NCBI RefSeq assembly: GCF_014397115.1 | Contig: NZ_CP060720.1 | Span: 450,001 to 514,000 of the forward strand | Direction of reading: 5' to 3' | From: Vagococcus carniphilus | GTDB taxonomy: Bacteria; Bacillota; Bacilli; Lactobacillales; Vagococcaceae | DNA: 64,000 bases | Shown: piece after piece, positions 3,466 through 52,979 of the stretch | Layout: every line of letters starts with the position of its first letter | Numbering within the stretch: position 1 is the stretch's first letter | Notes under the pieces: model-generated | What the model was told of the DNA's origin: nothing | Seen by the model: only the letters and a program-made list of their open reading frames with translations | Databases searched by the model: none | Program-made: the position numbers and the translations under genes

Positions 3466-4476
3466 ATGAATGAGGAAGAAAGTCGGCTTTTATCAAGTGA
3501 AGCAGAACAATCCGAAGAGTTTTTAGAAAAGTCACTCCGACCTCAGTATTTATCTCAATACATTGGTCAGGATAAAGTGAAGCGAGAACTTGAAATTTAT
3601 ATTAAAGCAGCTAAACAAAGAGAAGAATCATTAGACCATGTCTTACTTTACGGCCCTCCTGGATTAGGAAAAACAACGATGGCGATGGTTATTGCTAACG
3701 AGATGATGGTTAATATCAAAACAACTAGTGGACCAGCAATTGAAAAACCAGGAGATTTAGTTGCCATTTTAAATGAGTTAGAGCCTGGAGATGTTTTATT
3801 TATTGATGAGATTCACCGATTACCTCGAGTAGCAGAAGAGCTTCTTTATTCGGCTATGGAGGATTTTTATGTAGATATTATGGTGGGACAAGGTCCAAAT
3901 GCTCACCCTGTTCATTTTCCTTTACCGCCTTTTACATTAGTTGGTGCAACAACAAGAGCAGGCATGTTATCAGCTCCTTTAAGAGATCGTTTTGGAATTA
4001 TTTGCCATATGGAATATTATGAAGATGATGATTTAAAAGAAATCGTTCTAAGGTCAGCTGATATATTTGCAACAGATATTGTTGAATCCGGTGCTTTTGA
4101 AATTGCGAGACGATCAAGAGGCACACCACGTATTGCCAATCGGTTATTAAAACGTGTCCGTGACTTTGCTCAAGTCGAGGGAAATGGTGAAATTGACATC
4201 CAATTAGCAGATGAAGCCTTAAAAATGCTTCAAGTTGACCATAAAGGATTAGACTATGTGGATCAAAAAATACTAAGAACAATGATTGAACTCTATAATG
4301 GAGGACCAGTTGGCTTAACCACGATTGCGGTTAATATTAGTGAAGAAACAGAAACGGTAGAAGATATGTATGAACCTTATTTGATACAAAAAGGATTCAT
4401 TAAAAGAACGCAAAGAGGTCGAGTGGTGACAGAATTTGCTTATGAGCATTTAGGTTATGACTTTTATAAAGAATGA
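3466..4476 (+). CDS. ruvB: Holliday junction branch migration ATPase RuvB
   Basis: RuvB is the AAA+ hexameric motor that drives branch migration with RuvA. The 336-residue protein has Walker [10 protein letters not shown] at about 63-71, Walker B FIDEIHR near 112-118, the sensor-1 [10 protein letters not shown] segment and a C-terminal winged helix ([15 protein letters not shown]). It is full length. It is the last gene of the ruvAB operon; its stop codon lies inside the left arm of the terminator hairpin. Confidence 0.98.
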
Positions 4477-4507
4477 GTTCTCCTTAAAAAGAGAACTCAT
4501 TCTTTTT
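4471..4507 (+). terminator. Intrinsic terminator of ruvAB
   Basis: The inverted repeat GAATGAGTTCTC/GAGAACTCATTC is followed by a T-run. The left arm includes the ruvB stop codon, and the right arm overlaps the 3' end of the convergent methyltransferase gene. Confidence 0.85.
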
Positions 4508-5081
4508 TACCAATTAATAGAATAGAGCTACCGTCATCAGAGATACTTCGCTCGCAAATAATCTCAAATTTATATTTAGTATAGAGTGTACGGTAATCTG
4601 AAATAGACCATAGCCGAAATTTCATTAGCTTCATGAGAAAACTTAATAAAAAGAACTTTAGTTTATTTTGTTTAAAAATAGGGACAACAGAGATGAAATA
4701 GCCCCCTGTTTTGAGCACTCGATGAACCTCTTTGAGTACTTGATCGATATCAGAAACGACATGAAGAATGTTGATTGCTAATACAACTTCAAAGCTTCTA
4801 TCAGAAAAGGTTAAATTAGCTACATCTTGAATAGAAAGATTAATGTTAGGTGCTAATTGTTTTTCTTTTCCACGAGCAATCATTTCAGGTGAAAAATCGC
4901 TGGCTTCAATAAAATAGCAACTTTCAGATAAAGCTTCTGCCATTTGTCCTGTTCCAGTCCCAATCTCTAATAAATTGTCTTGTGAGGATAGGTAATTTTT
5001 AATAGTTTCAAGTAATAATGGATTAATAGTGTTGTTTTTATCAAAGCTTGGAGCAAGTTTATCCCAAAATTTAGCCTTCAT
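4497..5081 (-). CDS. Class I SAM-dependent methyltransferase, function unknown
   Basis: A 194-residue methyltransferase of the UbiE/Methyltransf_11 type. SAM-binding motif I LLEIGTGTG lies at about residues 37-45, an acidic residue follows the second strand (FIEASDFS), and the post-motif LAINILHVV and LKEVHRVLKTGG are typical of small-molecule methyltransferases. The substrate cannot be read from sequence. It starts at ATG 5081 with an AAAGGAG site. It is followed on the same strand by no gene and converges on ruvB. The upstream small membrane protein gene, 35 bases away, may share its transcript. Confidence 0.8.
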   Translation of the reverse strand: MKAKFWDKLAPSFDKNNTINPLLLETIKNYLSSQDNLLEIGTGTGQMAEALSESCYFIEASDFSPEMIARGKEKQLAPNINLSIQDVANLTFSDRSFEVVLAINILHVVSDIDQVLKEVHRVLKTGGYFISVVPIFKQNKLKFFLLSFLMKLMKFRLWSISDYRTLYTKYKFEIICERSISDDGSSILLIGKKE

Positions 5082-5116
5082 GATTATTCTCCTTTACTAT
5101 TAGTTAAACTAATTAA

Positions 5117-5374
5117 CTAGGGGCGATCCAACCAGTAATCAAATAAAAAAATAAATGGAATGATAATAGGGAGTATTGTGCTGAATAAAATAAAACTAAA
5201 GGCAACTCTAGTAGCAGCATCATTTTCTTTATTAGCAATAATAATGATAATTAGAGCTAAGATGAAAATCAAAAAACTGATTGAATTTTCATAGTTGAGC
5301 CAATTGAAGGCAACAGAAATATAAACAACAAACAACAGGGCAGTTACAATGCTAAGTATTTTTCTCTTCTCCAT
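5117..5374 (-). CDS. Small membrane protein of unknown function
   Basis: An 85-residue hydrophobic protein that I do not recognise. It has a short basic N-terminus (MEKRK) and three probable membrane segments, at about residues 7-25, 30-47 and 58-78. The ATG at 5374 is preceded by an AAAGGAG site, which supports it being a real gene. It lies just upstream of the methyltransferase gene on the same strand. Confidence 0.65.
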   Translation of the reverse strand: MEKRKILSIVTALLFVVYISVAFNWLNYENSISFLIFILALIIIIIANKENDAATRVAFSFILFSTILPIIIPFIFLFDYWLDRP

Positions 5375-5553
5375 AAAAAACTCTCCTTTTATCTAGTATA
5401 CCCTTATTTCTTTAATGACAAAATTTAAATAAAGAATTGTAACTGATTTATTCTAAAAATAATCTATTTAATCTGTGATATTCCCTTCCTCTTTTTCTTT
5501 TTAAGGAAAGATGTTAAAATACAACAGAATGACTGAGAGAGGAATAGAAGATT

Positions 5554-6588
5554 ATGACATTACAAACGTCGGATTTTGATTTTGATTTACCGGAAGAATT
5601 GATTGCGCAAACACCGTTAAAAAATCGTGCAGCTTCCAAATTACTAATTTTAGATAAAGAAACTGGAAAAGTTGAAGATAAGCATTTCAATGATATATTA
5701 GATGAGTTAAATGAAGGGGATGCTCTTGTTATGAATGATACAAGAGTTTTACCTGCAAGACTTCACGGAGAAAAGCCAGAAACTGGTGGGCATTTAGAAG
5801 TTCTTTTATTGAATAATATTGAGGGCGATAGATGGGAAACTTTAATAAAACCAGCTAAGCGAGCAAAAGTTGGTACAGCTATTTCTTTTGGTGACGGTAG
5901 ATTAAAAGCTATCGTTAAAGAAGAGTTAGAGCATGGCGGAAGAATCATTGATTTTACTTATGAAGGAGTCTTTTTAGAAAACCTTGAATCTTTAGGAGAG
6001 ATGCCTCTACCACCATACATAAAAGAAACGTTAGATGATCAAGAACGTTATCAAACTGTTTATGCTAAAGAAAACGGCTCAGCAGCAGCCCCAACAGCAG
6101 GACTACATTTTACTCAAGAACTTTTAGAAAAAATTGAAGCTAAAGGTGTGAAGTTAGTTTATCTAACATTACATGTTGGGTTAGGAACCTTTAGACCTGT
6201 TAGTGTGGAAGATTTAGACAACCATCACATGCACAGTGAATTTTATCGTTTAACAGAAGAAGCAGCCGAAGTTCTTCGAGAGGTTAAAGCATCAGGTGGA
6301 CGAGTGGTAGCAGTAGGAACAACTTCTATTAGAACCCTAGAAACAATTGGTTCAAAATTTGAAGGTGACATACAAGCTGATAGTGGTTGGACAGAAATTT
6401 TTATTAAGCCGGGATATGAATTTAAAGTAGTAGATGCTTTTTCAACTAATTTCCATTTACCAATGTCTACGTTGATCATGTTAGTTAGTGCTTTTGCAGG
6501 AAGAGAACATGTACTTCATGCTTATGAGCATGCAGTAGAAGAAAAATATCGTTTCTTCAGTTTTGGCGATGCTATGTTTGTAAAATAA
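5554..6588 (+). CDS. queA: S-adenosylmethionine:tRNA ribosyltransferase-isomerase QueA
   Basis: QueA transfers the ribosyl part of SAM to preQ1 at position 34 of GUN-anticodon tRNAs, making epoxyqueuosine. The 344-residue product is full length and shows the conserved segments [14 protein letters not shown] at the N-terminus, [10 protein letters not shown], and the [13 protein letters not shown] active-site region. The gene is followed by tgt after 19 bases, the enzyme that acts just before it, so the two form a queuosine operon. I saw no preQ1 riboswitch aptamer in the 180 bases upstream. Confidence 0.97.
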
Positions 6589-6607
6589 AAGAAAGTAGGA
6601 AGATTAA

Positions 6608-7753
<1,146 letters not shown>

Positions 7754-7835
7754 ATTTTAATAAAATAAGCTAGTGTAAGCTATTAAAATTTGTTAAAGTG
7801 TATAGTGACTTATAAAAGAAGAAGAGGTGTATGGA

Positions 7836-8186
7836 ATGAACGGTTTAGGAACAATGATTTTTCCGTTAGTTATTATCGGTGGGATGATGTTTTTCATGAC
7901 TCGCTCACAAAAGAAACAACAAAATCAACGTCAAGAATTGCTTAATAATATGAAAGCTGGCGACGAGATTGTTACAATTGGTGGTTTATACGGTGTAGTT
8001 CATGAAGTAAATACTGATAAAGGTACAGTTGTTATTGACTGTGAAGGTATCTACTTAGAATTTGAACGTAACGCTATTAAAACAGTCAAAGAAGGTACAA
8101 CAGCAACTCCAGCTCGAGTTCAAGAAACTGAAGTGGTTGAAGAAGTTGAAACAACAATAGTTGAAGAAGAAAAAGAAAATCAATAA
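7836..8186 (+). CDS. yajC: Preprotein translocase accessory subunit YajC
   Basis: YajC is a small single-span membrane protein associated with SecDF and the SecYEG channel. The 116-residue product has a transmembrane segment at about residues 5-22 followed by the conserved TRSQKKQQNQRQELLNNMKA segment and the GDEIVTIGGLYG motif, then an acidic C-terminal tail. I set the start at ATG 7836, six bases after a GAAGAGGTG site; the GTG at 7827 overlaps that site and is unlikely. The queA-tgt-yajC order is conserved widely in bacteria. Confidence 0.93.
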   Translation: MNGLGTMIFPLVIIGGMMFFMTRSQKKQQNQRQELLNNMKAGDEIVTIGGLYGVVHEVNTDKGTVVIDCEGIYLEFERNAIKTVKEGTTATPARVQETEVVEEVETTIVEEEKENQ

Positions 8187-8202
8187 GATTTTCTTTTTTT
8201 TT
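8172..8202 (+). terminator. AT-rich intrinsic terminator after yajC
   Basis: AAGAAAATC/GATTTTCTT with a five-base loop is followed by a long T-run. It overlaps the end of yajC. The stem is AT-rich, so some read-through into the next gene is likely. Confidence 0.6.
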
Positions 8203-8223
8203 ATTTATGTTGAGGTATTAAAG

Positions 8224-8493
8224 ATGACAAAAATAAGTAGAACTAAAAGATGGTTATTAAAATCAGTTGTCAAAGATTGGTTGAATAATTTAGCGAGTAA
8301 CGGTTATCAAGGAGTGACAGAAAATGATGTCTGGGAATATCTGTGTGAGTATCGTTGGAAAAAAAGTTCTCCAGAAACGATAGCTTTGATAAAAGAAGAT
8401 ATTGAAAAGATGACACCGAATGAATTTTTTGATTACCAACAAATGAAAGCAATGATGACTAATGATTGTCAAAACATAGACGATTTAATGTAA
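8224..8493 (+). CDS. ComN-like post-transcriptional regulator
   Basis: An 89-residue protein resembling the post-transcriptional regulator family that includes Bacillus subtilis ComN, which acts on the comE late-competence mRNA. The KRWLLKSVVKDWLNNLASNGY segment and the following WEYLCEYRWKK are the family hallmarks as I remember them. Its place next to yajC matches the yajC/comN neighbourhood of Bacillus. The start is ATG 8224 with a GAGG site upstream; the low-complexity lysine and phenylalanine stretch of a longer reading is the yajC terminator translated. Its role in this organism is inferred. Confidence 0.7.
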   Translation: MTKISRTKRWLLKSVVKDWLNNLASNGYQGVTENDVWEYLCEYRWKKSSPETIALIKEDIEKMTPNEFFDYQQMKAMMTNDCQNIDDLM

Positions 8494-8498
8494 AGGTA

Positions 8499-8516
8499 TT
8501 GTGATTATTTTATCAA
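8499..8516. promoter_or_regulatory. Possible distal Rex-like box upstream of adhE
   Basis: TTGTGA-N6-TATCAA has one full Rex half-site and one with two mismatches to TCACAA. It is the weakest and most distal of three similar sites before adhE. Confidence 0.3.
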
Positions 8517-8595
8517 TAAAGGTGTAAACATATCTAATAAAAGTAATTATTCATTTTAAACCTATAAGAATAGTTACTTTTACTTTTTAGAATAA

Positions 8596-8613
8596 AAGTG
8601 AAATTAATCACAA
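8596..8613. promoter_or_regulatory. Rex-like operator upstream of the adhE -35
   Basis: AAGTGA-N6-TCACAA contains one perfect half-site and one 4/6 half-site of the Rex consensus TTGTGA-N6-TCACAA. It lies just upstream of the -35 element. Confidence 0.5.
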
Positions 8614-8619
8614 AAACAC

Positions 8620-8648
8620 TTTACAAGAATGAAAAAATATTGTATATT
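8620..8648 (+). promoter_or_regulatory. Sigma-A promoter of adhE
   Basis: TTTACA at 8620-8625 and TATATT at 8643-8648 with a 17-base spacer. The predicted start is near 8655. Confidence 0.7.
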
Positions 8649-8652
8649 ACAT

Positions 8653-8670
8653 TTGTGAAGTAAATAACAA
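8653..8670. promoter_or_regulatory. Rex operator overlapping the adhE transcription start
   Basis: TTGTGA-AGTAAA-TAACAA matches the Rex consensus TTGTGA-N6-TCACAA at 11 of 12 fixed positions. It covers the predicted start site, so NADH-free Rex would block initiation, which is the usual mode for adhE in Firmicutes. Confidence 0.65.
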
Positions 8671-8688
8671 ATTTTTCGGGAGGCTATT

Positions 8689-11292
8689 ATGGTTAAGACA
8701 AAAGATAAAAAAGTTGAAGTAAAAGAAAATAATGTAGCACAAATGATTGACGAGTTAGTTGTAAAAGGAAATGTGGCATTAAAAGAAATGAAAGCTTTTG
8801 ATCAAGAAAAAGTTGACCACATTGTTCATCAAATGGCAATGGCAGCATTAAACGAACACATGCCTTTAGCGAAAATGGCAGTTGAAGAAACTGGCCGTGG
8901 TATTTACGAAGATAAAGCAATTAAAAATATGTTTGCATCAGAAAGTATTTGGAATAATATCAAATATGATAAGACAGTTGGTGTAATCAATGAAGATAAA
9001 CAAAAACAAATTATTGAAATCGCAGACCCAGTTGGAGTGGTTTGTGGGGTAACACCGACAACAAACCCGACATCAACAACTATTTTTAAAGCAATGATTT
9101 CAATTAAAACACGTAACCCAATTATTTTTGCTTTCCATCCAAGCGCGCAAAAATGTTCAGCAGAAGCAGCTCGTATTGTAAGAGATGCAGCGATTCAAGC
9201 AGGAGCACCTGAAAATTGTGTTCAATGGATCGAACAACCATCAATTGAAGCAACAAATGGTTTAATGAACCATGAAGGAGTTGCTATTGTTTTAGCAACA
9301 GGTGGAGCAGGTATGGTAAAAGCAGCTTACTCTACAGGAAAACCAGCATTAGGTGTTGGACCTGGTAATACACCTTCTTATGTTGAAAAATCTGCTAAAA
9401 TCAAACGTGCAGTAAACGATTTAATTGCTTCTAAATCATTTGATAACGGAATGATTTGTGCGTCTGAACAAGGTGTTATTGTTGATAAAGAAATTTATGA
9501 TACAGTAAAAGCTGAATTTGAAGCACATCAAGTTTACATTGTGAAACCAAATGAATTAGCTAAATTAGAAAAAGCAGTTATGAATGAAGCTAAAACAGCT
9601 GTTAATCCTAATATTGTTGGTCATTCAGCAGTTTCAATCGCAAAAGATGCTGGAATCAAAGTACCAGAAGGAACAAAAATTCTAATCGCTGAATTAGAAG
9701 ATGCTGGTGAAGATTACCCATTATCAAGAGAAAAATTATCTCCAGTTTTAGCAATGTTTAAAGCTAACAGTCGTGAGCATGGTTTAGAATTATGTGAGAA
9801 AATGTTAAAACTTGGTGGAGAAGGACATACAGCTGTATTACATTCAGAAGATGAAGATTTACATATCGAGTTTGGCTTAAGAATGAATGCTTGTCGTATC
9901 TTAATCAATTCACCAGCAGCTCAAGGTGGTATTGGTGATATCTACAATGAAATGATTCCTTCATTAACACTGGGTTGTGGATCTTATGGTAAAAACTCAG
10001 TATCTAAAAACGTTACAGCTATTAACTTAATTAATACAAAAACAGTAACGAAACGGAGAAATAATATGCAATGGTTTAAACTTCCAGAAAAAATTTATTT
10101 TGAATTAAATTCATTACAATACTTACAAAAAATGGAAGGTCTAGAACGCGTATTTATCGTTTGTGACCCAGGTATGGTTCAATTTGGTTACGCACAAAAA
10201 GTTATTGATGAGTTAAACAAACGCAATAACAAAGTAACTTACGAAATTTTCTCAGACGTAGAACCTAACCCTTCAACTAACACTGTTTATGCTGGAACAG
10301 ATATGATTAATAATTTCAAACCTGATACAATCATTGCTATTGGTGGTGGTTCTGCTATCGATGCGGCTAAAGGTATGTGGTTATTCTACGAACATCCAGA
10401 AACAGAATTCTTTGGAGCTAAACAAAAATTCTTAGATATTAGAAAACGTACTTATAAAATGGAAGCTGCTAAAAAATCTAAAATGGTTTGTATTCCAACA
10501 ACATCTGGTACAGGTGCTGAAGTAACACCGTTTGCAGTTATTACAGATAGCGAAACACACGTTAAATATCCATTAGCAGATTATGCTTTAACACCAGACG
10601 TGGCAATTATTGACCCACAATTTGTTATGAGTGTTCCAGCAAGTGTTACAGCTGATACAGGAATGGACGTTTTAACTCATGCAATTGAGTCATATGTTTC
10701 AGTTATGGCTTCTGATTATACACGTGGTTTAAGTTTACAGGCTATCCGTTTAGTATTTGATTACTTAGAAGATTCAGTAAAAAATCCTAATTTAGAAAAC
10801 AGAGAGAAAATGCATAATGCATCAACTATGGCTGGTATGGCATTTGCCAATGCTTTCCTAGGAATTTGTCACTCAATCGCTCACAAAATCGGTGGAGAAT
10901 ATGGTATTCCTCATGGTCGTACAAATGCTATTCTTTTACCACATATTATCCGTTACAATGCAAAAGATCCTTCAAAACACGCATTGTTCCCTAAATATGA
11001 TTACTTTAGAGCAGATACTGATTATGCTGATATCGCACGTTTCTTAGGTCTTAAAGGAAACACAACAGCTGAATTAGTTGAAGCATTAGCGACTGAAGTT
11101 GATGCTTTAGGAAAACGAGTTGGTATTGATATGAACCTTAAAGCACAAGGCTTATCACAAGAAACATTGGATAGTACAGTAGACCGTATGGCTGAACTTG
11201 CATATGAAGATCAATGTACAACAGCAAACCCTAAAGAACCATTAATCAGTGAATTAAAACAAATCATTGTTGATTCTTACGAAGGTAATTAA
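8689..11292 (+). CDS. adhE: Bifunctional acetaldehyde-CoA / alcohol dehydrogenase AdhE
   Basis: AdhE reduces acetyl-CoA to acetaldehyde and then to ethanol, using two NADH, and forms spirosomes. The 867-residue product is a full fusion: an N-terminal aldehyde dehydrogenase domain with catalytic Cys257 in NGMICASEQ, a linker near residue 455, and a C-terminal iron-dependent alcohol dehydrogenase with GGGSAIDAAKG and TSGTGAE for cofactor binding and metal ligands in DVLTHAIESY, CHSIAHKIGG and PHGR. It stands alone behind a sigma-A promoter and Rex-like boxes, which fits control by the NADH/NAD ratio. With ackA in the same window it represents the ethanol and acetate ends of mixed-acid fermentation. 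Confidence 0.98.
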   Translation: MVKTKDKKVEVKENNVAQMIDELVVKGNVALKEMKAFDQEKVDHIVHQMAMAALNEHMPLAKMAVEETGRGIYEDKAIKNMFASESIWNNIKYDKTVGVINEDKQKQIIEIADPVGVVCGVTPTTNPTSTTIFKAMISIKTRNPIIFAFHPSAQKCSAEAARIVRDAAIQAGAPENCVQWIEQPSIEATNGLMNHEGVAIVLATGGAGMVKAAYSTGKPALGVGPGNTPSYVEKSAKIKRAVNDLIASKSFDNGMICASEQGVIVDKEIYDTVKAEFEAHQVYIVKPNELAKLEKAVMNEAKTAVNPNIVGHSAVSIAKDAGIKVPEGTKILIAELEDAGEDYPLSREKLSPVLAMFKANSREHGLELCEKMLKLGGEGHTAVLHSEDEDLHIEFGLRMNACRILINSPAAQGGIGDIYNEMIPSLTLGCGSYGKNSVSKNVTAINLINTKTVTKRRNNMQWFKLPEKIYFELNSLQYLQKMEGLERVFIVCDPGMVQFGYAQKVIDELNKRNNKVTYEIFSDVEPNPSTNTVYAGTDMINNFKPDTIIAIGGGSAIDAAKGMWLFYEHPETEFFGAKQKFLDIRKRTYKMEAAKKSKMVCIPTTSGTGAEVTPFAVITDSETHVKYPLADYALTPDVAIIDPQFVMSVPASVTADTGMDVLTHAIESYVSVMASDYTRGLSLQAIRLVFDYLEDSVKNPNLENREKMHNASTMAGMAFANAFLGICHSIAHKIGGEYGIPHGRTNAILLPHIIRYNAKDPSKHALFPKYDYFRADTDYADIARFLGLKGNTTAELVEALATEVDALGKRVGIDMNLKAQGLSQETLDSTVDRMAELAYEDQCTTANPKEPLISELKQIIVDSYEGN

Positions 11293-45150: not shown

Positions 45151-45199
45151 AGAAGTTATGATTAAAGTTTTAAAACTTTAGTCACAGCTTCTTTTTTTT
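45151..45199. terminator. Terminator between plsC and phzF-like genes
   Basis: AGAAG/CTTCT with an inner perfect palindrome TAAAGTTTTAAAACTTTA, followed by T8. Confidence 0.75.
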
Positions 45200-46043
45200 A
45201 TAAACTTAAAGATTTGGTTTCACAGTAAAAACCTCTACCACCAACGTAAACTTTTTTAATTTTTTTTTGCTCCGTTGTTTCTAGCTTAACTAGTATTTCA
45301 GAAGGTGAGTTTAGAGAGTAGCCTTGTTCAAATACATAAGTATCTCTAACAAGCTCATGTTTTTCATAAAGATAGCAAGCAAGTGCTCCATTTGAAGTGC
45401 CTGTTGCTGCTTCTTCATTGATATCATAAAGAGGTGCAAAATTACGGCAGATGATTCGTGTTTCATCAAACGTATAAAGATGAGCCCCGATAACATCATA
45501 TTGTTCGCTAATTTCTTTAATTTTTTCAAAGTTAGGTGTTAATTCACTTAATTGTTTTTCACTTTTGATGGGTACTAATATATCTTTTAAACCAGTCGAT
45601 ACAATTTGAATGGGATAATGAGTATCGATGTCATTGATATCAAAACAATCTCTCAATTCATTTGAATCAATTGTTTCGTAAAAAGTAGGTGTGTTTTGTT
45701 CCATGAAGATCACATCATCTTTAATCGTAATCGTAAGAACACCACTCTTTGTTTCGATGGTATAATTATTTTTAGTTAATTTATTTAAATGCATCAATAT
45801 AGTAAATGAGCCAATGGTTGCATGTCCACATAAATCAACTTCTTCTTTTGGTGTAAAGTATTCAATTTTAAAATCAGCTATTTCAGATTCTGTGACAAAC
45901 GCAGTTTCTGCATAGCCTAATTGTTTGGCAATCGACATTTTTTGATTAACAGTTAATGTCTCTTGATTGAGTACTACACCAGCCTTATTACCACCATTTT
46001 GATTTTTACTGAATGCACTTGCTACATAAACGGGTAGAGTCAT
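45198..46043 (-). CDS. PhzF-family isomerase
   Basis: A 281-residue protein of the PhzF family of isomerases and epimerases, most of unknown substrate. It has NKAGVVL and the catalytic glutamate in GYAETAF (Glu46), then DLCGHATIGS and GTSNGAL, which contain the GHAT and GT-S/N-G active-site loops. Two similar halves form the diaminopimelate-epimerase-like fold. ATG 46043 follows AAAGGAAGG; a longer reading from 46067 overlaps the site. No phenazine genes are near, so biosynthesis of phenazine is not implied. Confidence 0.9.
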   Translation of the reverse strand: MTLPVYVASAFSKNQNGGNKAGVVLNQETLTVNQKMSIAKQLGYAETAFVTESEIADFKIEYFTPKEEVDLCGHATIGSFTILMHLNKLTKNNYTIETKSGVLTITIKDDVIFMEQNTPTFYETIDSNELRDCFDINDIDTHYPIQIVSTGLKDILVPIKSEKQLSELTPNFEKIKEISEQYDVIGAHLYTFDETRIICRNFAPLYDINEEAATGTSNGALACYLYEKHELVRDTYVFEQGYSLNSPSEILVKLETTEQKKIKKVYVGGRGFYCETKSLSL

Positions 46044-46102
46044 GAGATACCTTCCTTTCTTGATCACGTTAAATTATAACATAACGAAATATTATCAATA
46101 AT

Positions 46103-46137
46103 AAAACCACCTAAACTTACTAATAATAGGTGGTTTT
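46103..46137 (-). terminator. Terminator of the kinase/TrpF-like/ADH operon
   Basis: AAAACCACCT/AGGTGGTTTT with a 15-base loop, just after the alcohol dehydrogenase stop codon on the minus strand. The U-tract is short. Confidence 0.6.
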
Positions 46138-46145
46138 GATTTTAT

Positions 46146-47303
46146 CTATAGTCCAAATTCAGCTAATAATTCTTCAACAATTTCACTCGACAATTCAAAT
46201 GGCGTGTTACCAGCAAAACGTTCATGTTGGACATCCGCTGTTAAAGCTAAAACGTCTTTTCTTTTTATGTTTAAAGTATCAAAAGCAGTTAATCCTAAAA
46301 CGTCATCTCTAAATTCACGGTATTTTTGTGAGGTGATTTTGCCAATCTCAGCTTCATCAGCTCCTTCTGGGAAGGTAGCTCCTAAGATGTAACCAATTTC
46401 TTTAATTTTTTTAGGTTTAACACTAGCTGTTGCTTTAAGTGTACCAGGTAAAGCGTAAGCACATGCTTGGCCGTGAGGAATATTTAGTTTTGCGCCAATG
46501 ATATGGGCTTGGGAGTGCCCAATATGAGTGCCGCCATTATTCAATACCCAGCCGCCAAGTGCTGCAGCAACCATCATTCTTTCGCGTGCTTCTTTATTTT
46601 GTCCATCAGTTGTTGCCAGTGGTAAATAGTTATAGATTAAAAACATTATTTTTTCGCAAATGGCATCCACAACAGGTGTGGATAAGTTAGATGTATAAGC
46701 TTCAGCAGCGTGGGAGAAAGCATCTAATCCTGTTGATATAGTTAATTGTTTTGGTAGAGAGACCAGTAGTTCTGGCGCTAAAATAGCTACCTCACTAACA
46801 ATTTCATTTGATAAAACAGCTAACTTTTCATTTTTTATGGTATCTGTCACAATCAAAGCATTCGATAATTCACTACCTGTTCCAGAAGTTGTCGGAATAG
46901 CAATTAAACCATGACAAAATTCAGTGATTTCTTTATCATATGCATAATCGGCAATACTTCCACCTAGAAGTCTAACAATGTTCATTCCTCTAGCAGCATC
47001 GATTACGCTACCGCCACCAATTGCTAAAATAGCATCACAATTATGTTCTTTGAAGAAAGAAGCACCGCTATCCACTAATTCAATAGGAGGATTGGGGATA
47101 ACTTTATCAAAAATAAGATAATCTTTTTGATTTTTTTCTAGAGTTATCAACAATTGTTTAATAGCATCTGTGGATAGTAAGAAATTATCAATCACAATAA
47201 GCGGTTTTTGATATCCTTTGTCATTTAAAACATCAAGAGTTGTTGTAGCTAGTTCATTAGTCACAAGGACTTTCACTTTTTGTTCTAATTTATAATCTAA
47301 CAT
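46146..47303 (-). CDS. Iron-containing alcohol dehydrogenase
   Basis: A 385-residue group III metal-dependent alcohol dehydrogenase. It has the NAD-binding GGGSVIDAARG and the TSGTGSE motif, and the metal ligands in GLDAFSHAAEAY (Asp and His), GHSQAHIIG (His) and PHGQA (His). The fold is the same as in AdhE and 1,3-propanediol or butanol dehydrogenases; the substrate is not identifiable. It begins 12 bases after the TrpF-like gene with AAAAGGAG and is the last gene of the three-gene operon, so it likely oxidises or reduces a pathway intermediate. Confidence 0.9.
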   Translation of the reverse strand: MLDYKLEQKVKVLVTNELATTTLDVLNDKGYQKPLIVIDNFLLSTDAIKQLLITLEKNQKDYLIFDKVIPNPPIELVDSGASFFKEHNCDAILAIGGGSVIDAARGMNIVRLLGGSIADYAYDKEITEFCHGLIAIPTTSGTGSELSNALIVTDTIKNEKLAVLSNEIVSEVAILAPELLVSLPKQLTISTGLDAFSHAAEAYTSNLSTPVVDAICEKIMFLIYNYLPLATTDGQNKEARERMMVAAALGGWVLNNGGTHIGHSQAHIIGAKLNIPHGQACAYALPGTLKATASVKPKKIKEIGYILGATFPEGADEAEIGKITSQKYREFRDDVLGLTAFDTLNIKRKDVLALTADVQHERFAGNTPFELSSEIVEELLAEFGL

Positions 47304-47314
47304 ATTGTCTCCTT

Positions 47315-48010
47315 TTATAAACCAATTTCTTTAGCTGCTTTATCAGCACGTTCACAGAACTCACGAACTTTAGGAATATTTTTTTCTGTCACGCCGTCTT
47401 CAAATTTATAGGACGTCTTTGTAAGAGAATCTACTCCGAATGGTTTGATTTGTTTGATACAATCTTCTACATTATCTGGTCCAAGACCTCCAGCGATGAT
47501 GACAGGAATGTTAACAGTTTCCACAATAGTACGATCAATATTCCAATCATGGGTTTGACCACTGGCACCGATTCCTGTGTCTTTAGCTAATCCAGAGTCT
47601 GTTAGTAAGTAGTCACAATATTCAGCGTAGCCTTTAGCTCGCTCAATAGCGGATTCATCATCTACTAATACGGCTTGCATTAATTCAACACCTGGACATT
47701 CTTTACGTAAACGATCAGCAAAAGATTTGTCAGCAGTATAGTCCATACCAGCAATATGAACAATGTCTGGATTAACGCGTTTGATAATAAAGAACATTTC
47801 TTCCACATCTTTATTTAACATGATAGCAATTGATTTAACACCGCGTCGTTTGCATTCAGCGTAGATTTTATCCACAACATCAAAAGGAACACGGTGAGCA
47901 GGAATACCGCCTGTTTGCATTGGCACAAGTCCAATATGGTCAGCCCCAGCATCCATTGTTTGAACTGCCTCATTGTAATTTACGATTGAATAAATTTGTT
48001 TTTTTACCAT
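47315..48010 (-). CDS. TrpF-like (phosphoribosylanthranilate isomerase fold) protein lacking the catalytic cysteine
   Basis: A 231-residue (beta/alpha)8 protein related to phosphoribosylanthranilate isomerase. The TrpF signatures that bind the phosphoribosyl part are kept: LLTDS with the general-acid aspartate, GASGQTHDW as the phosphate loop, and AGGLGPDNV. But the N-terminal strand, KxCG in TrpF, reads KQIYSIV, so the catalytic cysteine is missing, and the QLHG motif reads HIAG. No trp genes are near. It lies between a PsuK-like kinase and an alcohol dehydrogenase, so I infer that it acts on a different phosphorylated ribosyl compound. Confidence 0.75.
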   Translation of the reverse strand: MVKKQIYSIVNYNEAVQTMDAGADHIGLVPMQTGGIPAHRVPFDVVDKIYAECKRRGVKSIAIMLNKDVEEMFFIIKRVNPDIVHIAGMDYTADKSFADRLRKECPGVELMQAVLVDDESAIERAKGYAEYCDYLLTDSGLAKDTGIGASGQTHDWNIDRTIVETVNIPVIIAGGLGPDNVEDCIKQIKPFGVDSLTKTSYKFEDGVTEKNIPKVREFCERADKAAKEIGL

Positions 48011-48025
48011 AATTAATACGCTCCT

Positions 48026-48970
48026 TTAAATAATTTCCATATATTTCGTAGATCGATGGACGATATTTTTGATATTTAACTCTTCTGATACTGAAAGAGG
48101 TGACTCTACAGTAATACTTGCAGCAGCTTGAGACAATTGACCGATTTCTTTTAGAGGTAAAACATCGCCATAATAAAATCTAGCCCAGGCAATAGTTGCC
48201 ATAGTACAATCACCAGCACCATTTGTACTAATAATAGTCTCTGCCATTGGAGGAATTAAAGTTGGTTCCTCGTCATGCCGAGAACATAGTATGCCTTTTT
48301 TTCCTAAAGAAATAAAAACATTTTTAACACCTTTTAAATTTAATTGATGGGCAGCTTCTTTTCCAGTTTCACAATCGATTACTTTAACACCAGTTAAAAG
48401 TTCTGCTTCGAGGTCATTTGGTTTAATCGTATCAATTTTATCAAGGACATGCCTAAATTTTCCAACTTTAGCAATAGAGACAGGGTCAACAAAAATAGGA
48501 ACAGTGACATGCTGTGCTAAGTATTCAATGGATTCTTGAGAAATATTACCATCAAGTACAAGCATTTCAGCGTTGTTGATAAAATCTAATTTTTTTTCTA
48601 AAAAACGAGGAGTCATTTGTTTTACAATGCTCATATCGTTGATAGCAGTTACCATATCTCCTTGGTCATTTGCTACGTATAAATAAGTTGAGCTATTTTC
48701 ACCAGGAATTTTTTCAGCATGATCAAGATTGATTTGATTTTTTTGACATTCTTTTTCTAGAATCTCACCAAAACTATCATCACCATACACAGTAATTAAA
48801 TAAGTTGGTGCTTCTAAACGAGTTAGGTTTTGAGCAATATTTTGTCCAACACCACCGACACTCAAACTTATTTTTCCAATATTTGAATCTTTTTCATGGT
48901 AGTTTTTATCTGACAAACCTGCGATGTCTAAGTTTAAACCACCGACCACTACAATGTACTTATCTTCCAC
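48026..48970 (-). CDS. PsuK-like PfkB-family kinase
   Basis: A 314-residue ribokinase-superfamily kinase that phosphorylates a sugar or nucleoside at the 5' or terminal OH. The N-terminal motif GGLNLDIAG, the DSNIGKISLSVGGVGQNIAQNL segment, TAINDMSI and the catalytic TNGAGDCTMAT anion-hole motif (GAGD at about 251-254) are intact. These segments resemble E. coli pseudouridine kinase YeiC/PsuK as I remember it. The usual partner psuG is not next to it. I chose GTG 48970, five bases after GAGGTGG. It is first in the operon. Pseudouridine is a guess; another nucleoside or sugar is possible. Confidence 0.75.
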   Translation of the reverse strand: MEDKYIVVVGGLNLDIAGLSDKNYHEKDSNIGKISLSVGGVGQNIAQNLTRLEAPTYLITVYGDDSFGEILEKECQKNQINLDHAEKIPGENSSTYLYVANDQGDMVTAINDMSIVKQMTPRFLEKKLDFINNAEMLVLDGNISQESIEYLAQHVTVPIFVDPVSIAKVGKFRHVLDKIDTIKPNDLEAELLTGVKVIDCETGKEAAHQLNLKGVKNVFISLGKKGILCSRHDEEPTLIPPMAETIISTNGAGDCTMATIAWARFYYGDVLPLKEIGQLSQAAASITVESPLSVSEELNIKNIVHRSTKYMEII

Positions 48971-49002
48971 TGTAACCACCTCATCAATTTATTTACATAT
49001 TT

Positions 49003-49032
49003 ATTATAGGATGCGCTTCCAAAAATAGTCAA
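49003..49032 (-). promoter_or_regulatory. Promoter of the PsuK-like/TrpF-like/ADH operon
   Basis: On the minus strand TTGACT (49027-49032) and a perfect TATAAT (49003-49008) are separated by 18 bases. Confidence 0.75.
49008..49022. promoter_or_regulatory. CcpA cre box between -35 and -10 of the kinase operon
   Basis: On the minus strand TTGGAAGCGCATCCT fits every position of the cre pattern WTGNAANCGNWNNCW. Lying in the spacer of the promoter, it predicts direct carbon catabolite repression of the operon. Confidence 0.7.
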
Positions 49033-49045
49033 ACTATTATATAGT
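49017..49045 (+). promoter_or_regulatory. Possible promoter of the pseudokinase regulator
   Basis: TTCCAA at 49017-49022 and TATAGT at 49040-49045 with a 17-base spacer. The -35 is weak and overlaps the cre box. Confidence 0.4.
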
Positions 49046-49063
49046 GAATAAACAAATGTTTAT
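49024..49063. promoter_or_regulatory. Two palindromes in the divergent regulatory region
   Basis: AATAGT-CAA-ACTATT at 49024-49038 and ATAAAC-AAAT-GTTTAT at 49048-49063 are both perfect inverted repeats. The first overlaps the -35 of the kinase operon. They are the likely operators of the adjacent pseudokinase regulator. Which is bound is unknown. Confidence 0.45.
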
Positions 49064-49086
49064 AAAAATAGAGGTGGAGATTTTTT

Positions 49087-50175
49087 ATGACAGAAAGAGA
49101 AAAAGTAATATTAGCTATTATTCGAGATAATCCAACCATATCTCAAGAAGAATTAGCGTTTGAGTTAGGCATATCAAGATCAGGTGTGGCAGCACATATT
49201 CATAACTTAATGAAGAAAGGCTACATAAAGGGAAAAGGTTATATTGTTAATAATCCTAGTTTTGTCACTGTTATTGGTGGTATTAACATGGATATTGTAG
49301 CTGTTCCAAAAGAAAAAGTAATTGTTAATAATTCTAATCCAGGAAAAATTAATTATTACTTTGGTGGGGCAGGACGAAATATGGCGTTAGCCCTAACTAA
49401 ATTAGGTATTAGTACCAATCTAATTTCTGTTTATGGAGATGATGTTAACGGCGATCGTTTTGTATTAGATGCTAGAAGGCATGGTCTATCAATTGACTGT
49501 TGTGAAAAAATTAGTGGGTTTAATACATCGACGTTTGTTTATTTGGAAGATTATGCAAGTGATTTTAGAGTTGGACTAGATGATATGAGAATTTTAGAGA
49601 ATATATCACCAGAGTTAATTAATCGTTATTTACAACGGATTAATCAGTCGAAGTATTGTGTCATTGATGATAATTTACCAGAAGAAACGATTAAACATTT
49701 GAGTGAATATGTGGATGTGCCAATTATCGCCAAATCTGTTTCTATCAATAAGGTTTTAAGATTGATTCCAATTTTATCTAAACTAGAATTGTTAGTTCTT
49801 TCTGATTTAGAATTAAAAACATTAGCGTATTATTTTGATGAGAACTTAATTACAATGGAACAACGAACTAAAAAGATATTAGCTGAAGGCATTAAGTCTT
49901 TACTCATTGTGGAAAAGTCAGGTGATGTTTCTTATTGGGAAGTAGATAATGTTTATAAAATAAAGAAACGTTTAACGCCTGAGTTCAATAGTAATGGCTC
50001 CACAGCTGTTTTTACCAGTTCTTTAATTTGGGGAATCTTACAAGGTAAATATTTGACCAAAGACCTCGTTGAACTGGGTTATTCTGGTGCTACAACTAGT
50101 TTTTTAACCAACGATTCGGTTTTTGAAGGTCTATCACCAGAGTTAATTTTAGAAAGGTATCAAAAATACTTTTAA
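49087..50175 (+). CDS. Winged-helix regulator with a PfkB-like pseudokinase domain
   Basis: A 362-residue regulator. Residues 1-55 are a winged helix (ISQEELAFELGISRSGVAAHIHNL) and residues about 60-360 are a PfkB fold with GGINMDIVAV, NSNPGKINYYFGGAGRN and a ligand-type core similar to the divergently transcribed kinase. The catalytic motif, GAGD in active PfkB kinases, reads GSTA at 304-307, so the base aspartate is gone. I infer that the domain senses the kinase substrate or product and no longer phosphorylates it. It is divergent from the PsuK-like operon by about 115 bases, with palindromic operators between. Confidence 0.85.
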   Translation: MTEREKVILAIIRDNPTISQEELAFELGISRSGVAAHIHNLMKKGYIKGKGYIVNNPSFVTVIGGINMDIVAVPKEKVIVNNSNPGKINYYFGGAGRNMALALTKLGISTNLISVYGDDVNGDRFVLDARRHGLSIDCCEKISGFNTSTFVYLEDYASDFRVGLDDMRILENISPELINRYLQRINQSKYCVIDDNLPEETIKHLSEYVDVPIIAKSVSINKVLRLIPILSKLELLVLSDLELKTLAYYFDENLITMEQRTKKILAEGIKSLLIVEKSGDVSYWEVDNVYKIKKRLTPEFNSNGSTAVFTSSLIWGILQGKYLTKDLVELGYSGATTSFLTNDSVFEGLSPELILERYQKYF

Positions 50176-50582: not shown

Positions 50583-50652
50583 AGCGATATTGACTAAAAG
50601 GTCAATAGAGATTAGAATAAGGATATCCATTAGAAGAAAGTAGGTGTTTGAA

Positions 50653-51528
50653 TTGTCAAAAGTAATTGAAATCTGTCATTTAACAAAAAAGTATAAAAAT
50701 ATGAAAGCTGTTGATGATATTTCTTTAGAGATTGAAGAAGGTGAAATCTTTGGTTTTATTGGTCCAAATGGTGCTGGAAAATCTACTACAATAAAAATGC
50801 TTCTTAATTTTATATTTCCAACCAGTGGAGAAGCTAGAATTTTTGGAATGGATTGTATTAAGCAAAGTATTGATATCAAAAAGAAAGTTGGTTATGTCTC
50901 TAGTGATGTTCGCTACTATCATGAAATGACCTCCTTAGATATATTTAAATACACCGCTGAGTTTCATGGCATTAAGAATAGCCAGACTTTAATTGATGAG
51001 TATTTAGCTTATTTTGAAATTGAACCCAATAAAAAAATAGCTGATTTATCTTTAGGGAATAAGAAAAAAGTAGCGATTGTCTCAGCACTTCTTCAAAATC
51101 CTAAATTACTTATTTTAGATGAACCAACTAATGGGCTAGATCCGATGATTCAACACCGGTTGTTTGAAGTTTTAGAGAAGAAAAGTAAAGAAGGAATGAC
51201 AATTTTTTTATCTAGTCATGATTTACATGAAATTCAAACACACTGTGATCGAGCAGCCTTTATAAAAAATGGAAAAATTATTTCAATCGAAACAATCCAT
51301 AAAGGAAAAGAGATTGAGAAAAAAGTAAATGTGGTTTCTGAAACAATTCAAAAAGAAGACCTTGAAAAATTAGGAGCAACTCAAGTTCAAGTGAACGATA
51401 CCAACTGGCAATTTTTATACAAAGAAGAGATTGATCAACTTATTCACTATTTAAGTGATCACCAAATAACAGATTTAGAAATAAAACCTCTTGATTTAGA
51501 AGATAAATTCTTATCAATGTACGAGTAG
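50653..51528 (+). CDS. ABC transporter ATP-binding protein (ABC-2 type)
   Basis: A 291-residue ATPase of an ABC-2 exporter. It has Walker A GPNGAGKST, the signature LSLGNKKKVAI with LSLGN in place of LSGGQ, Walker B LLILDEPTNGLD and the H-loop SSHDLHE. The C-terminal third is the family's variable regulatory part. I chose TTG 50653, six bases after AGGTG, over GTG 50644. The permease gene follows after 12 bases. The substrate is unknown. Confidence 0.9.
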   Translation: MSKVIEICHLTKKYKNMKAVDDISLEIEEGEIFGFIGPNGAGKSTTIKMLLNFIFPTSGEARIFGMDCIKQSIDIKKKVGYVSSDVRYYHEMTSLDIFKYTAEFHGIKNSQTLIDEYLAYFEIEPNKKIADLSLGNKKKVAIVSALLQNPKLLILDEPTNGLDPMIQHRLFEVLEKKSKEGMTIFLSSHDLHEIQTHCDRAAFIKNGKIISIETIHKGKEIEKKVNVVSETIQKEDLEKLGATQVQVNDTNWQFLYKEEIDQLIHYLSDHQITDLEIKPLDLEDKFLSMYE

Positions 51529-51540
51529 GAGGTAAGAAAA

Positions 51541-52350
51541 ATGACAGTTTTTAAAATAGAATGGCAAAATAATCGAAAGAGTTTGCTGATTTGGACGATT
51601 GCTTTGGCTGTGATTATTGTTGTATTTATGAGTATTTTTCCTTCCATGTCATCTTCTGGAATGAAAGAAATGATGACAACCAAATTAGATACACTGCCAC
51701 AAAATATGCTAAAAGCTTTTCATCTAAATTCAGGACCGAGTTTAGTAGAACCAACGGGCTTTTTTGCCTATATCTTTCAATATATTTTTATAGCAGCAAG
51801 TATTTTTTCTATTATGTTAGGCAACAAAATGTTAGTTAAAGAAGAAACAGATGGGACAATTGAGTTTTTATATGCTCAACCAGTTAGTAGAAAGAAAATT
51901 ATTTTAGAAAAAATTGCAGCGACTTTGAGTATGCTTTTTGTCTTTTGGCTAGTTACCTATAGTGTAAGTATAGCAACTACATTATTTTTCAATGACGGTC
52001 TTTTAAAAAATAAAGAAATTATAACATCTTTATCGAAGATTTTTATAACTGAATTTGTTGTTTTAGTTTTCTTTTTAAGTTTAGGTTTTCTTTTGTCTAG
52101 TTTTTTAAAACAGGTTAATCAGGGGATTAGTATGGGACTTGTTTTCATCTTTTATTTATTTGGAATTGTTGGAGATTTAGAAGAAAAGTTTTCTTATCTA
52201 ACTGATATTTCACCAATTGCTAAAGCGAATCCAGCGGCTATTTTAGAAAAGAGAATGGATTATCCTTTAATTGGAATCCTTATAGGTATTAGTCTTTTGC
52301 TATTCATCTTCTCCATCATTATTTATCAACGAAAGGATTTGGAAATTTAA
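51541..52350 (+). CDS. ABC transporter permease (ABC-2 type)
   Basis: A 269-residue permease with six membrane segments and the long first extracytoplasmic loop of the ABC-2 membrane family. It pairs with the ATPase upstream. Its stop overlaps the start of the TetR gene by one base. The exporter may handle a drug, peptide or lipid, and the sequence does not say which. Confidence 0.88.
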   Translation: MTVFKIEWQNNRKSLLIWTIALAVIIVVFMSIFPSMSSSGMKEMMTTKLDTLPQNMLKAFHLNSGPSLVEPTGFFAYIFQYIFIAASIFSIMLGNKMLVKEETDGTIEFLYAQPVSRKKIILEKIAATLSMLFVFWLVTYSVSIATTLFFNDGLLKNKEIITSLSKIFITEFVVLVFFLSLGFLLSSFLKQVNQGISMGLVFIFYLFGIVGDLEEKFSYLTDISPIAKANPAAILEKRMDYPLIGILIGISLLLFIFSIIIYQRKDLEI

Positions 52351-52979
52351 TGGAAGAAAAACAAATCGAAATTTTAAAAATTGCAACAGAAGAATTTGCA
52401 ACTAATGGTTTTTATCAAACCAAGACAGATATTATTGCTGAGAAAGCGAATGTTTCAAAAGGCTTAGTGTTTCATTATTTTAAAACAAAGAAAAATCTTT
52501 ACAGTGAAACGATCAGAGAGGCGATTGTTCAACTAGAAAAAGCCATGAATGAAGGAGAATACCCTACGAATAGTCTAATTGACTTGTTTGATTACTCTTT
52601 AAAGAAAAAATTTGAATTAGCTAAAAGCCACCAGTTTGAGATGCAACTAATTTTAGATGTATACAGTCATTTGGAGCAGTTACCTGAAGAGATGAATCAA
52701 GAAATTGATGATTATCTTGAAAGAGTGAATAAGGCTAGCTATGAAATGGTGGCGACAATCGTTAGAAGGCTACCTTTAAAAAATGGTATCTTTGAAGAAG
52801 ATGTAGTCAAACTGGTATTGATGATTTTTAATCAAGTCGAGTTAGATGCTAAAAAAACAATGGAGCATGAAAAAGTAACTAATTTACGCTTTTTCGATCA
52901 AGTTATGTTTGATGCGAGGAAACAATTAAGTATATTAGAAACTGGATTTCTACGAGAAAACAGAAACTTTTCACGATGA
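52350..52979 (+). CDS. TetR-family transcriptional regulator
   Basis: A 209-residue TetR regulator. The N-terminal helix-turn-helix is clear in EFATNGFYQTKTDIIAEKANVSKGLVFHYFKTKKNLY. The ligand-binding C-terminal domain is the larger variable part. Its position in an operon with the ABC exporter, overlapping the permease, suggests autoregulated control of the exporter by an effector that it may export. Confidence 0.92.
   Translation: MEEKQIEILKIATEEFATNGFYQTKTDIIAEKANVSKGLVFHYFKTKKNLYSETIREAIVQLEKAMNEGEYPTNSLIDLFDYSLKKKFELAKSHQFEMQLILDVYSHLEQLPEEMNQEIDDYLERVNKASYEMVATIVRRLPLKNGIFEEDVVKLVLMIFNQVELDAKKTMEHEKVTNLRFFDQVMFDARKQLSILETGFLRENRNFSR

Follow-up and report, generated by a model that had tools for sequence, protein, structure and literature searches.

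A predicted pseudouridine salvage cluster of Vagococcus carniphilus in which a TrpF-fold protein is the probable stand-in for PsuG

We analyzed a stretch of 64,000 nucleotides (the window) from the 3.13-Mb genome of Vagococcus carniphilus (contig NZ_CP060720.1, positions 450,001 to 514,000), in which three tightly packed minus-strand genes, separated by 15 and 11 bases, encode in this order a PfkB kinase, a protein of the TrpF fold (TrpF-like protein) and an iron-containing alcohol dehydrogenase. A fourth gene, for a helix-turn-helix (HTH) protein with a PfkB domain, is divergent from them. This arrangement had been described in an earlier sequence-only reading, and we found the open reading frames (ORFs) at those places with families that agree. 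The results strongly support a conserved module with a pseudouridine-kinase site and a pseudokinase regulator, and the TrpF-like protein probably replaces the glycosidase PsuG. The four genes are:

46146-47303, minus strand: iron-containing alcohol dehydrogenase, accessory (ORF and Pfam Fe-ADH match)
47315-48010, minus strand: TrpF-fold protein, predicted stand-in for PsuG with pseudouridine 5'-phosphate (PsiMP) as its substrate (ORF and Pfam PRAI match)
48026-48979, minus strand: PfkB kinase, predicted pseudouridine kinase (ORF; start probably GTG at 48970)
49087-50175, plus strand: winged-helix HTH and PfkB pseudokinase, predicted pseudouridine-sensing regulator (HTH_24 and PfkB matches)

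The window kinase matched the Pfam family PfkB, contained the catalytic aspartate in its GAGD motif and had as its closest PDB match the Escherichia coli pseudouridine kinase EcPsuK (7vkp, E 6e-54). The surroundings of pseudouridine in EcPsuK are formed by Asn14, Asp16, Gly41, Val42, Asn45, Tyr97, Met114, Asn143, Val166, Ser167 and Lys170, and Asp256 is catalytic (PMC9247573). Alignment to EcPsuK taken from NC_000913 showed that this 12-residue set, NDGVNYMNVSKD, was conserved 12/12 in the window kinase. It was also found in 54 of 58 kinase-like rows from 57 loci, that is, in all cluster kinases examined, since the other four rows were unrelated PfkB paralogues (one gene among them was met in two loci). 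The rows overlapped between collections and included the named kinases except one (44/45), L082, which ORF calling did not detect. Among the nine PfkB matches of the window genome, the full set was present in the window kinase only; the seven matches other than this kinase and the regulator did not fit it, and position 143 is an asparagine in the window kinase versus a glutamate in the best PfkB match among these paralogues. The kinases located beside psuG carried the set as well (16/16, from 20 of the order's 56 psuG genomes). These residues strongly suggest that the enzyme acts as a pseudouridine kinase.

The sole Pfam match of the TrpF-like protein was PRAI, the TrpF family (50.6 bits versus a cut-off of 22.7), and the protein is predicted to have the TrpF fold. 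Its scores with the NCBIfam TrpF equivalogs were at most 81.6 bits and every one was below its cut-off; the window genome held one match to the protein and no second. In TrpF, Cys7 is the catalytic general base and Asp126 is the general acid. The position of Cys7 was a tyrosine in 49 of 49 TrpF-like rows, while the cysteine was kept in 12 of 12 TrpF rows with a letter there (4/16 had a gap). The position of Asp126, which is Asp138 in the TrpF-like protein, was an aspartate in all rows of both kinds (49/49 and 16/16), and the phosphate motif was retained. Arg36 of TrpF is replaced by a histidine or a glutamine in the TrpF-like protein, SSG by TKTS, and extra loops are present. The TrpF-like protein is neither the sole ribose-5-phosphate isomerase of the window genome nor a tryptophan enzyme because RpiA is present and indole-3-glycerol phosphate synthase (IGPS) was not found there, in a search whose control was positive in 14/14; both roles were rejected, the second also on the loss of Cys7.

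No psuG lies at the locus, as the sequence-only reading had observed, and no PsuG (PF04227) was found in the window genome, with a control search positive in 3 of 14 known genomes. A contig scan gave 47 named loci, from Vagococcus, Alkalibacterium, lactobacilli, Streptococcus catagoni, clostridia, Lachnospiraceae, a Ureibacillus metagenome-assembled genome (MAG) and Bifidobacterium; the cluster recurs across Bacilli, Clostridia and Bifidobacterium. Searches of these loci by tblastn detected the kinase in 45, the dehydrogenase in 40, the regulator in 36, a nucleoside hydrolase in 25, a YczE-like protein in 22, a CNT-type transporter in 19 and psuG in none, counts that are lower bounds as contig ends cut several loci short. 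The kinase and TrpF-like genes were neighbours in 45 of the 47 loci, an association that chance does not explain; one of the two kinase-less loci, L048, ends 164 bases upstream at the end of its contig, and the other, L065, is a real exception. Since seven clostridial loci and their genomes are without a close dehydrogenase, the constant core is limited to the kinase and the TrpF-like protein. TrpF-like matches were found in 44 of 395 genomes of the order; 14 were orthologues at 64-100% identity, and the remaining 30 were at most 37% identical and were true TrpF by their look. All four genes were together in 14/14 orthologue loci, sometimes interrupted by additional genes, so that the conserved co-occurrence which the sequence-only reading had proposed to look for was found and the partners were not unrelated ones. 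psuG was present in 56/395 genomes of the order. Among the 47 named cluster genomes, one had it, namely the Ureibacillus MAG, where no kinase is linked. Across the L. brevis family, 0/397 genomes held psuG and 19/397 held the TrpF-like protein.

Comparison of the kinases of the order showed that 17 of 345 genomes had a match to the window kinase with an E-value of at most 1e-40. Fifteen of these held this kinase clade (at least 49% identity), 12 of them with the TrpF-like protein and the other three all with psuG. A second kinase copy was found in a genome holding both the TrpF-like protein and psuG. The four kinases without a TrpF-like neighbour (those of the three genomes and this second copy) have psuG elsewhere in the genome, retain the complete 12-residue set and adjoin a CNT-type transporter, one of them also two nucleoside hydrolases. 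In a tree for which the program warned of long branches, mainly outgroups and E. coli rows, these four joined the V. fessus kinase (99/92) inside the TrpF-linked kinase clade (100/99). Because they nest inside this clade, one kinase lineage occurs either with the TrpF-like protein or with genomic PsuG, which is a partner swap.

In the window regulator, the GAGD motif is replaced by NSNGSTA and the catalytic aspartate is lost, as the pseudokinase label given earlier implied. Nine of the 12 PsuK positions are kept, the changes being Val42 to Ala, Tyr97 to Phe and Asp256 to Ala. All 46 regulator rows, among which some loci occur twice, had an alanine, a serine or a glycine at the position of Asp256, while Asn14, Asp16, Gly41, Asn45, Met114 and Lys170 were retained and the other positions of the set changed little; all regulators were on one side of a tree branch with a support of 100/99. 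As a dead kinase with a retained pocket is joined to a DNA-binding domain, the protein is most simply a substrate sensor, probably a pseudokinase that senses pseudouridine.

In the 420 bases that precede the first aligned codon of the kinase, 36 of 50 loci had a palindrome, TAAACAWWTGTTTA, with at most two mismatches and 24 of 50 had it with at most one, when 1.7 loci were expected at up to two mismatches by single-base shuffling; the motif was derived from the same loci in which it was counted, so that this test is not independent. It was present in 33 of 37 loci where the regulator was found versus 3 of 13 where it was not, some of the latter being short contigs. The window has an exact copy and, elsewhere, one-mismatch sites at 47147 and 56686:

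49049-49062, no strand: predicted operator TAAACAAATGTTTA, palindrome in the regulator-kinase interval

In a relative (G133), locus L182 keeps a nucleoside hydrolase and the pseudokinase regulator (6186-8251); in the 15 kb read, no kinase, TrpF-like protein, YczE-like protein, dehydrogenase or CNT transporter was found, and other genes were present instead. This regulator is an apparent orphan left by deletion.

Pseudouridine is one of the commonest modified building blocks of RNA. We consider it reasonably likely that the cluster is a pseudouridine salvage module in which a family of the TrpF fold, with the TrpF cysteine changed to a tyrosine, does the job of PsuG. The kinase would convert pseudouridine to PsiMP, and the TrpF-like protein would bind PsiMP by its 5'-phosphate where barrel strands 7 and 8 end. 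Asp138 would then protonate the ring oxygen, the ribose would open, and cleavage of the C-C glycosidic bond, without participation of the cysteine used by TrpF, would give uracil and ribose 5-phosphate. The dehydrogenase would be an accessory, and the HTH pseudokinase would use its inactive catalytic site to bind pseudouridine and would control the operon via the TAAACAWWTGTTTA palindrome. The chances are about even that the TrpF-like protein is a second, unrelated solution to the C-C glycosidic bond, built on a TrpF-related TIM barrel and governed by a pseudokinase that arose from a pseudouridine kinase and became a pseudouridine sensor. The sequence-only reading is partly supported. The components that it named, among them the PsuK-like kinase and a TrpF-like protein likely to handle a phosphoribosyl compound, held up; its suggestion that the dehydrogenase could act on the product concerns a gene outside the constant core. 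What it did not reach was the complete pseudouridine site, the largely retained site of the regulator and the apparent replacement of PsuG.

The bacterial pseudouridine route in the literature examined uses PsuG. The gene order in E. coli (NC_000913) is yeiI-nupX-rihB-yeiL-psuT-psuG-psuK, a parts list largely the same as that of the extended clusters. A PfkB kinase with the identical 12 residues, an HTH-PfkB protein, a CNT-type transporter and a pyrimidine nucleoside hydrolase are common to both, whereas our cluster has a TrpF-fold protein in place of PsuG, its HTH-PfkB protein is catalytically dead, and the dehydrogenase and a YczE-like membrane protein are added. E. coli YeiI (L116:3701-4789) shares the HTH and PfkB domains with the cluster regulator but has an intact kinase aspartate; it matches 11 of the 12 PsuK positions (Met114 is a threonine), which suggests that its ligand may be related to pseudouridine. 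A recognisable kinase was located beside psuG in 16 of the 20 Lactobacillales psuG loci read. These kinases have the same 12 residues as those of the cluster but form a separate clade; GAGD is intact in every one of them, and an N-terminal HTH is present in most. In loci L096-L115, most were long enough for such an HTH, which was present where seen, and these proteins are perhaps kinase and regulator in one.

Several observations weigh against pseudouridine salvage with a PsuG stand-in. The window locus is without a transporter or a hydrolase gene (no genome-wide search for these was made). The best NCBIfam model of the window kinase, PRK09850 'pseudouridine kinase', scored 212.9 bits versus a curated cut-off of 540, and the kinase is not filed as a member. 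In the TrpF-like protein, K198 is an arginine in 2 of 49 rows, which counts against a Schiff-base lysine, and the invariant K202 and K210 have no proven catalytic role; an aldolase role, considered for the KTS motif that we take to resemble that of DeoC, was dropped because of the K198 changes and the position of the motif near the last strand. The exceptional locus L065 (Ureibacillus MAG, 4214-10871) combines the TrpF-like protein and the dehydrogenase with no kinase and with psuG elsewhere in the genome. The co-occurrence test draws on few genomes that are not phylogenetically independent: two of the three in the partner swap belong to one genus. Avoidance between psuG and the TrpF-like protein was not shown in the order sample, where their overlap (1/14) is compatible with chance (about 2 expected). 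Finally, the dehydrogenase is frequent (40/47) yet has no place in PsuG chemistry.

The metal ligands of the dehydrogenase, Asp194, His198, His263 and His277, were kept in 41 of 41 aligned sequences, and the enzyme is therefore probably active; a dead enzyme, which a strict regular expression had hinted at, was rejected on this alignment. The gene is tightly linked where present. We searched nine genomes, several of them MAGs and two represented by loci on short contigs: the seven clostridial genomes with the kinase and the TrpF-like protein gave a best match of at most 36% identity or none, and the two genomes that hold the dehydrogenase, L052 and L058, gave close copies (62% and 54%). The dehydrogenase was thus rejected as a core member; it is an accessory and the main loose end of the interpretation. 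For this reason, we kept an alternative in which the TrpF-like protein turns the same PsiMP into 5-(1-deoxyribulosyl)uracil 5'-phosphate by a C-Amadori reaction and the iron dehydrogenase reduces the carbonyl. This reaction is the nearest to TrpF chemistry, with the fold, the phosphate motif and the general-acid aspartate kept, and it gives the dehydrogenase a role. The invariant tyrosine at the place of the general base and the seven genomes without a close dehydrogenase speak against it. It would also end in a product that leads no further, while psuG genomes use the same kinase clade; we regard this reaction as unlikely.

Ribose induction of what may be a related cluster is a further difficulty for pseudouridine salvage. 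The L. sakei genes lsa0254-lsa0259, likened to ours by annotation and order and not by sequence, comprise a kinase, a phosphoribosyl isomerase, hypothetical genes, an iron alcohol dehydrogenase and a pyrimidine nucleoside symporter. In an excerpt of PMC3146418, the listed members were induced on ribose; lsa0254 and lsa0255, which are among them, were proposed to supply a ribose kinase and a phosphoribosyl isomerase, and lsa0258 was proposed to reduce acetaldehyde. No L. sakei locus was present in our collection. By extension, the cluster would serve salvage of ribose or nucleoside ribose, with a second ribokinase, a TrpF-like ribose-5-phosphate isomerase and a dehydrogenase reducing acetaldehyde, and the RihA and CNT-type neighbours are consistent with this. 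However, the kinase carries all 12 pseudouridine residues, Asn143 among them, RpiA is already available, and the induction may reflect relief of catabolite repression, a catabolite-responsive element (cre) being listed for lsa0254 in the same excerpt; ribose salvage is thus quite improbable. Salvage of another modified or C-linked nucleoside fitting the same pocket, with a TrpF-like protein and a dehydrogenase specific to that compound, might account for the dehydrogenase and agrees with a pocket that reads the uracil ring and with the 6.79% activity of EcPsuK on N1-methylpseudouridine, but it is marginally less probable still, as the 12 contacts are identical to those of EcPsuK, which an excerpt of PMC9247573 gives as inactive on seven other named compounds, and psuG genomes use the same kinase clade.

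Searches of the open-access literature gave no description of the cluster: no paper listed ties a TrpF-like protein to pseudouridine by title and abstract, although publication elsewhere is possible, and no full text contained both 'pseudouridine kinase' and 'phosphoribosylanthranilate isomerase'; the cluster genes are not named in excerpts of PMC4746261 and PMC5669474. If true, pseudouridine salvage by this cluster would explain a possible use of pseudouridine by Vagococcus, lactobacilli, bifidobacteria and clostridia without psuG, and would bring a repurposed TrpF barrel together with a pseudouridine-responsive regulator. It would also provide a new family of C-C bond-cleaving (or C-Amadori) enzymes useful for C-nucleotide synthesis, and the labels 'phosphoribosyl isomerase' and 'ribokinase' for these genes would need correcting.

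The remaining features of the window locus are:

49003-49032, minus strand: promoter-like TTGACT-18-TATAAT ahead of the kinase (11/12 matches)
46103-46137, minus strand: possible terminator after the dehydrogenase (11-bp perfect stem and 13-base loop, by eye)

The promoter-like site was the best of 20 in the region, when 20.3 were expected by chance, and is weak on its own. A terminator scan with a loop limit of 8 gave none, and the loop of the candidate exceeds this limit. For the kinase, the GTG at 48970 is a more likely start than the ORF boundary at 48979, as a GAGGTGG ribosome-binding site lies ahead of it (by eye). A cre-like sequence with about two mismatches to the consensus was seen by eye at 49008-49021, at the promoter-like site. 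The neighbouring PhzF gene (45198-46067) was rejected as a cluster member as none of the other 13 orthologue clusters has it alongside, and so were the ABC and TetR genes (50644-52979), as the ABC genes recur in close relatives only.

Where the cluster is extended, the additional genes encode a NupC-family transporter, a RihA-type hydrolase and a YczE-like membrane protein. Family scans done on the genes of locus L043 (L. brevis-like) showed that the hydrolase is a RihA equivalog (517.7 bits versus a cut-off of 433), while the transporter and the YczE-like protein scored below the cut-offs of their models; the latter (L043:8122-8748) is a regular member of lactobacillar clusters. The neighbours of L065 include carboxynorspermidine decarboxylase, HemQ and aminotransferase-like genes. 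In the clostridial loci L057 (3066-3665), L059 and L060, a gene of a shared family, HD-domain-like by eye, was located near the kinase and TrpF-like pair. In a Lachnospiraceae MAG (L062:7985-15223), this pair is followed by a uridine kinase and a BMP-type ABC transporter.

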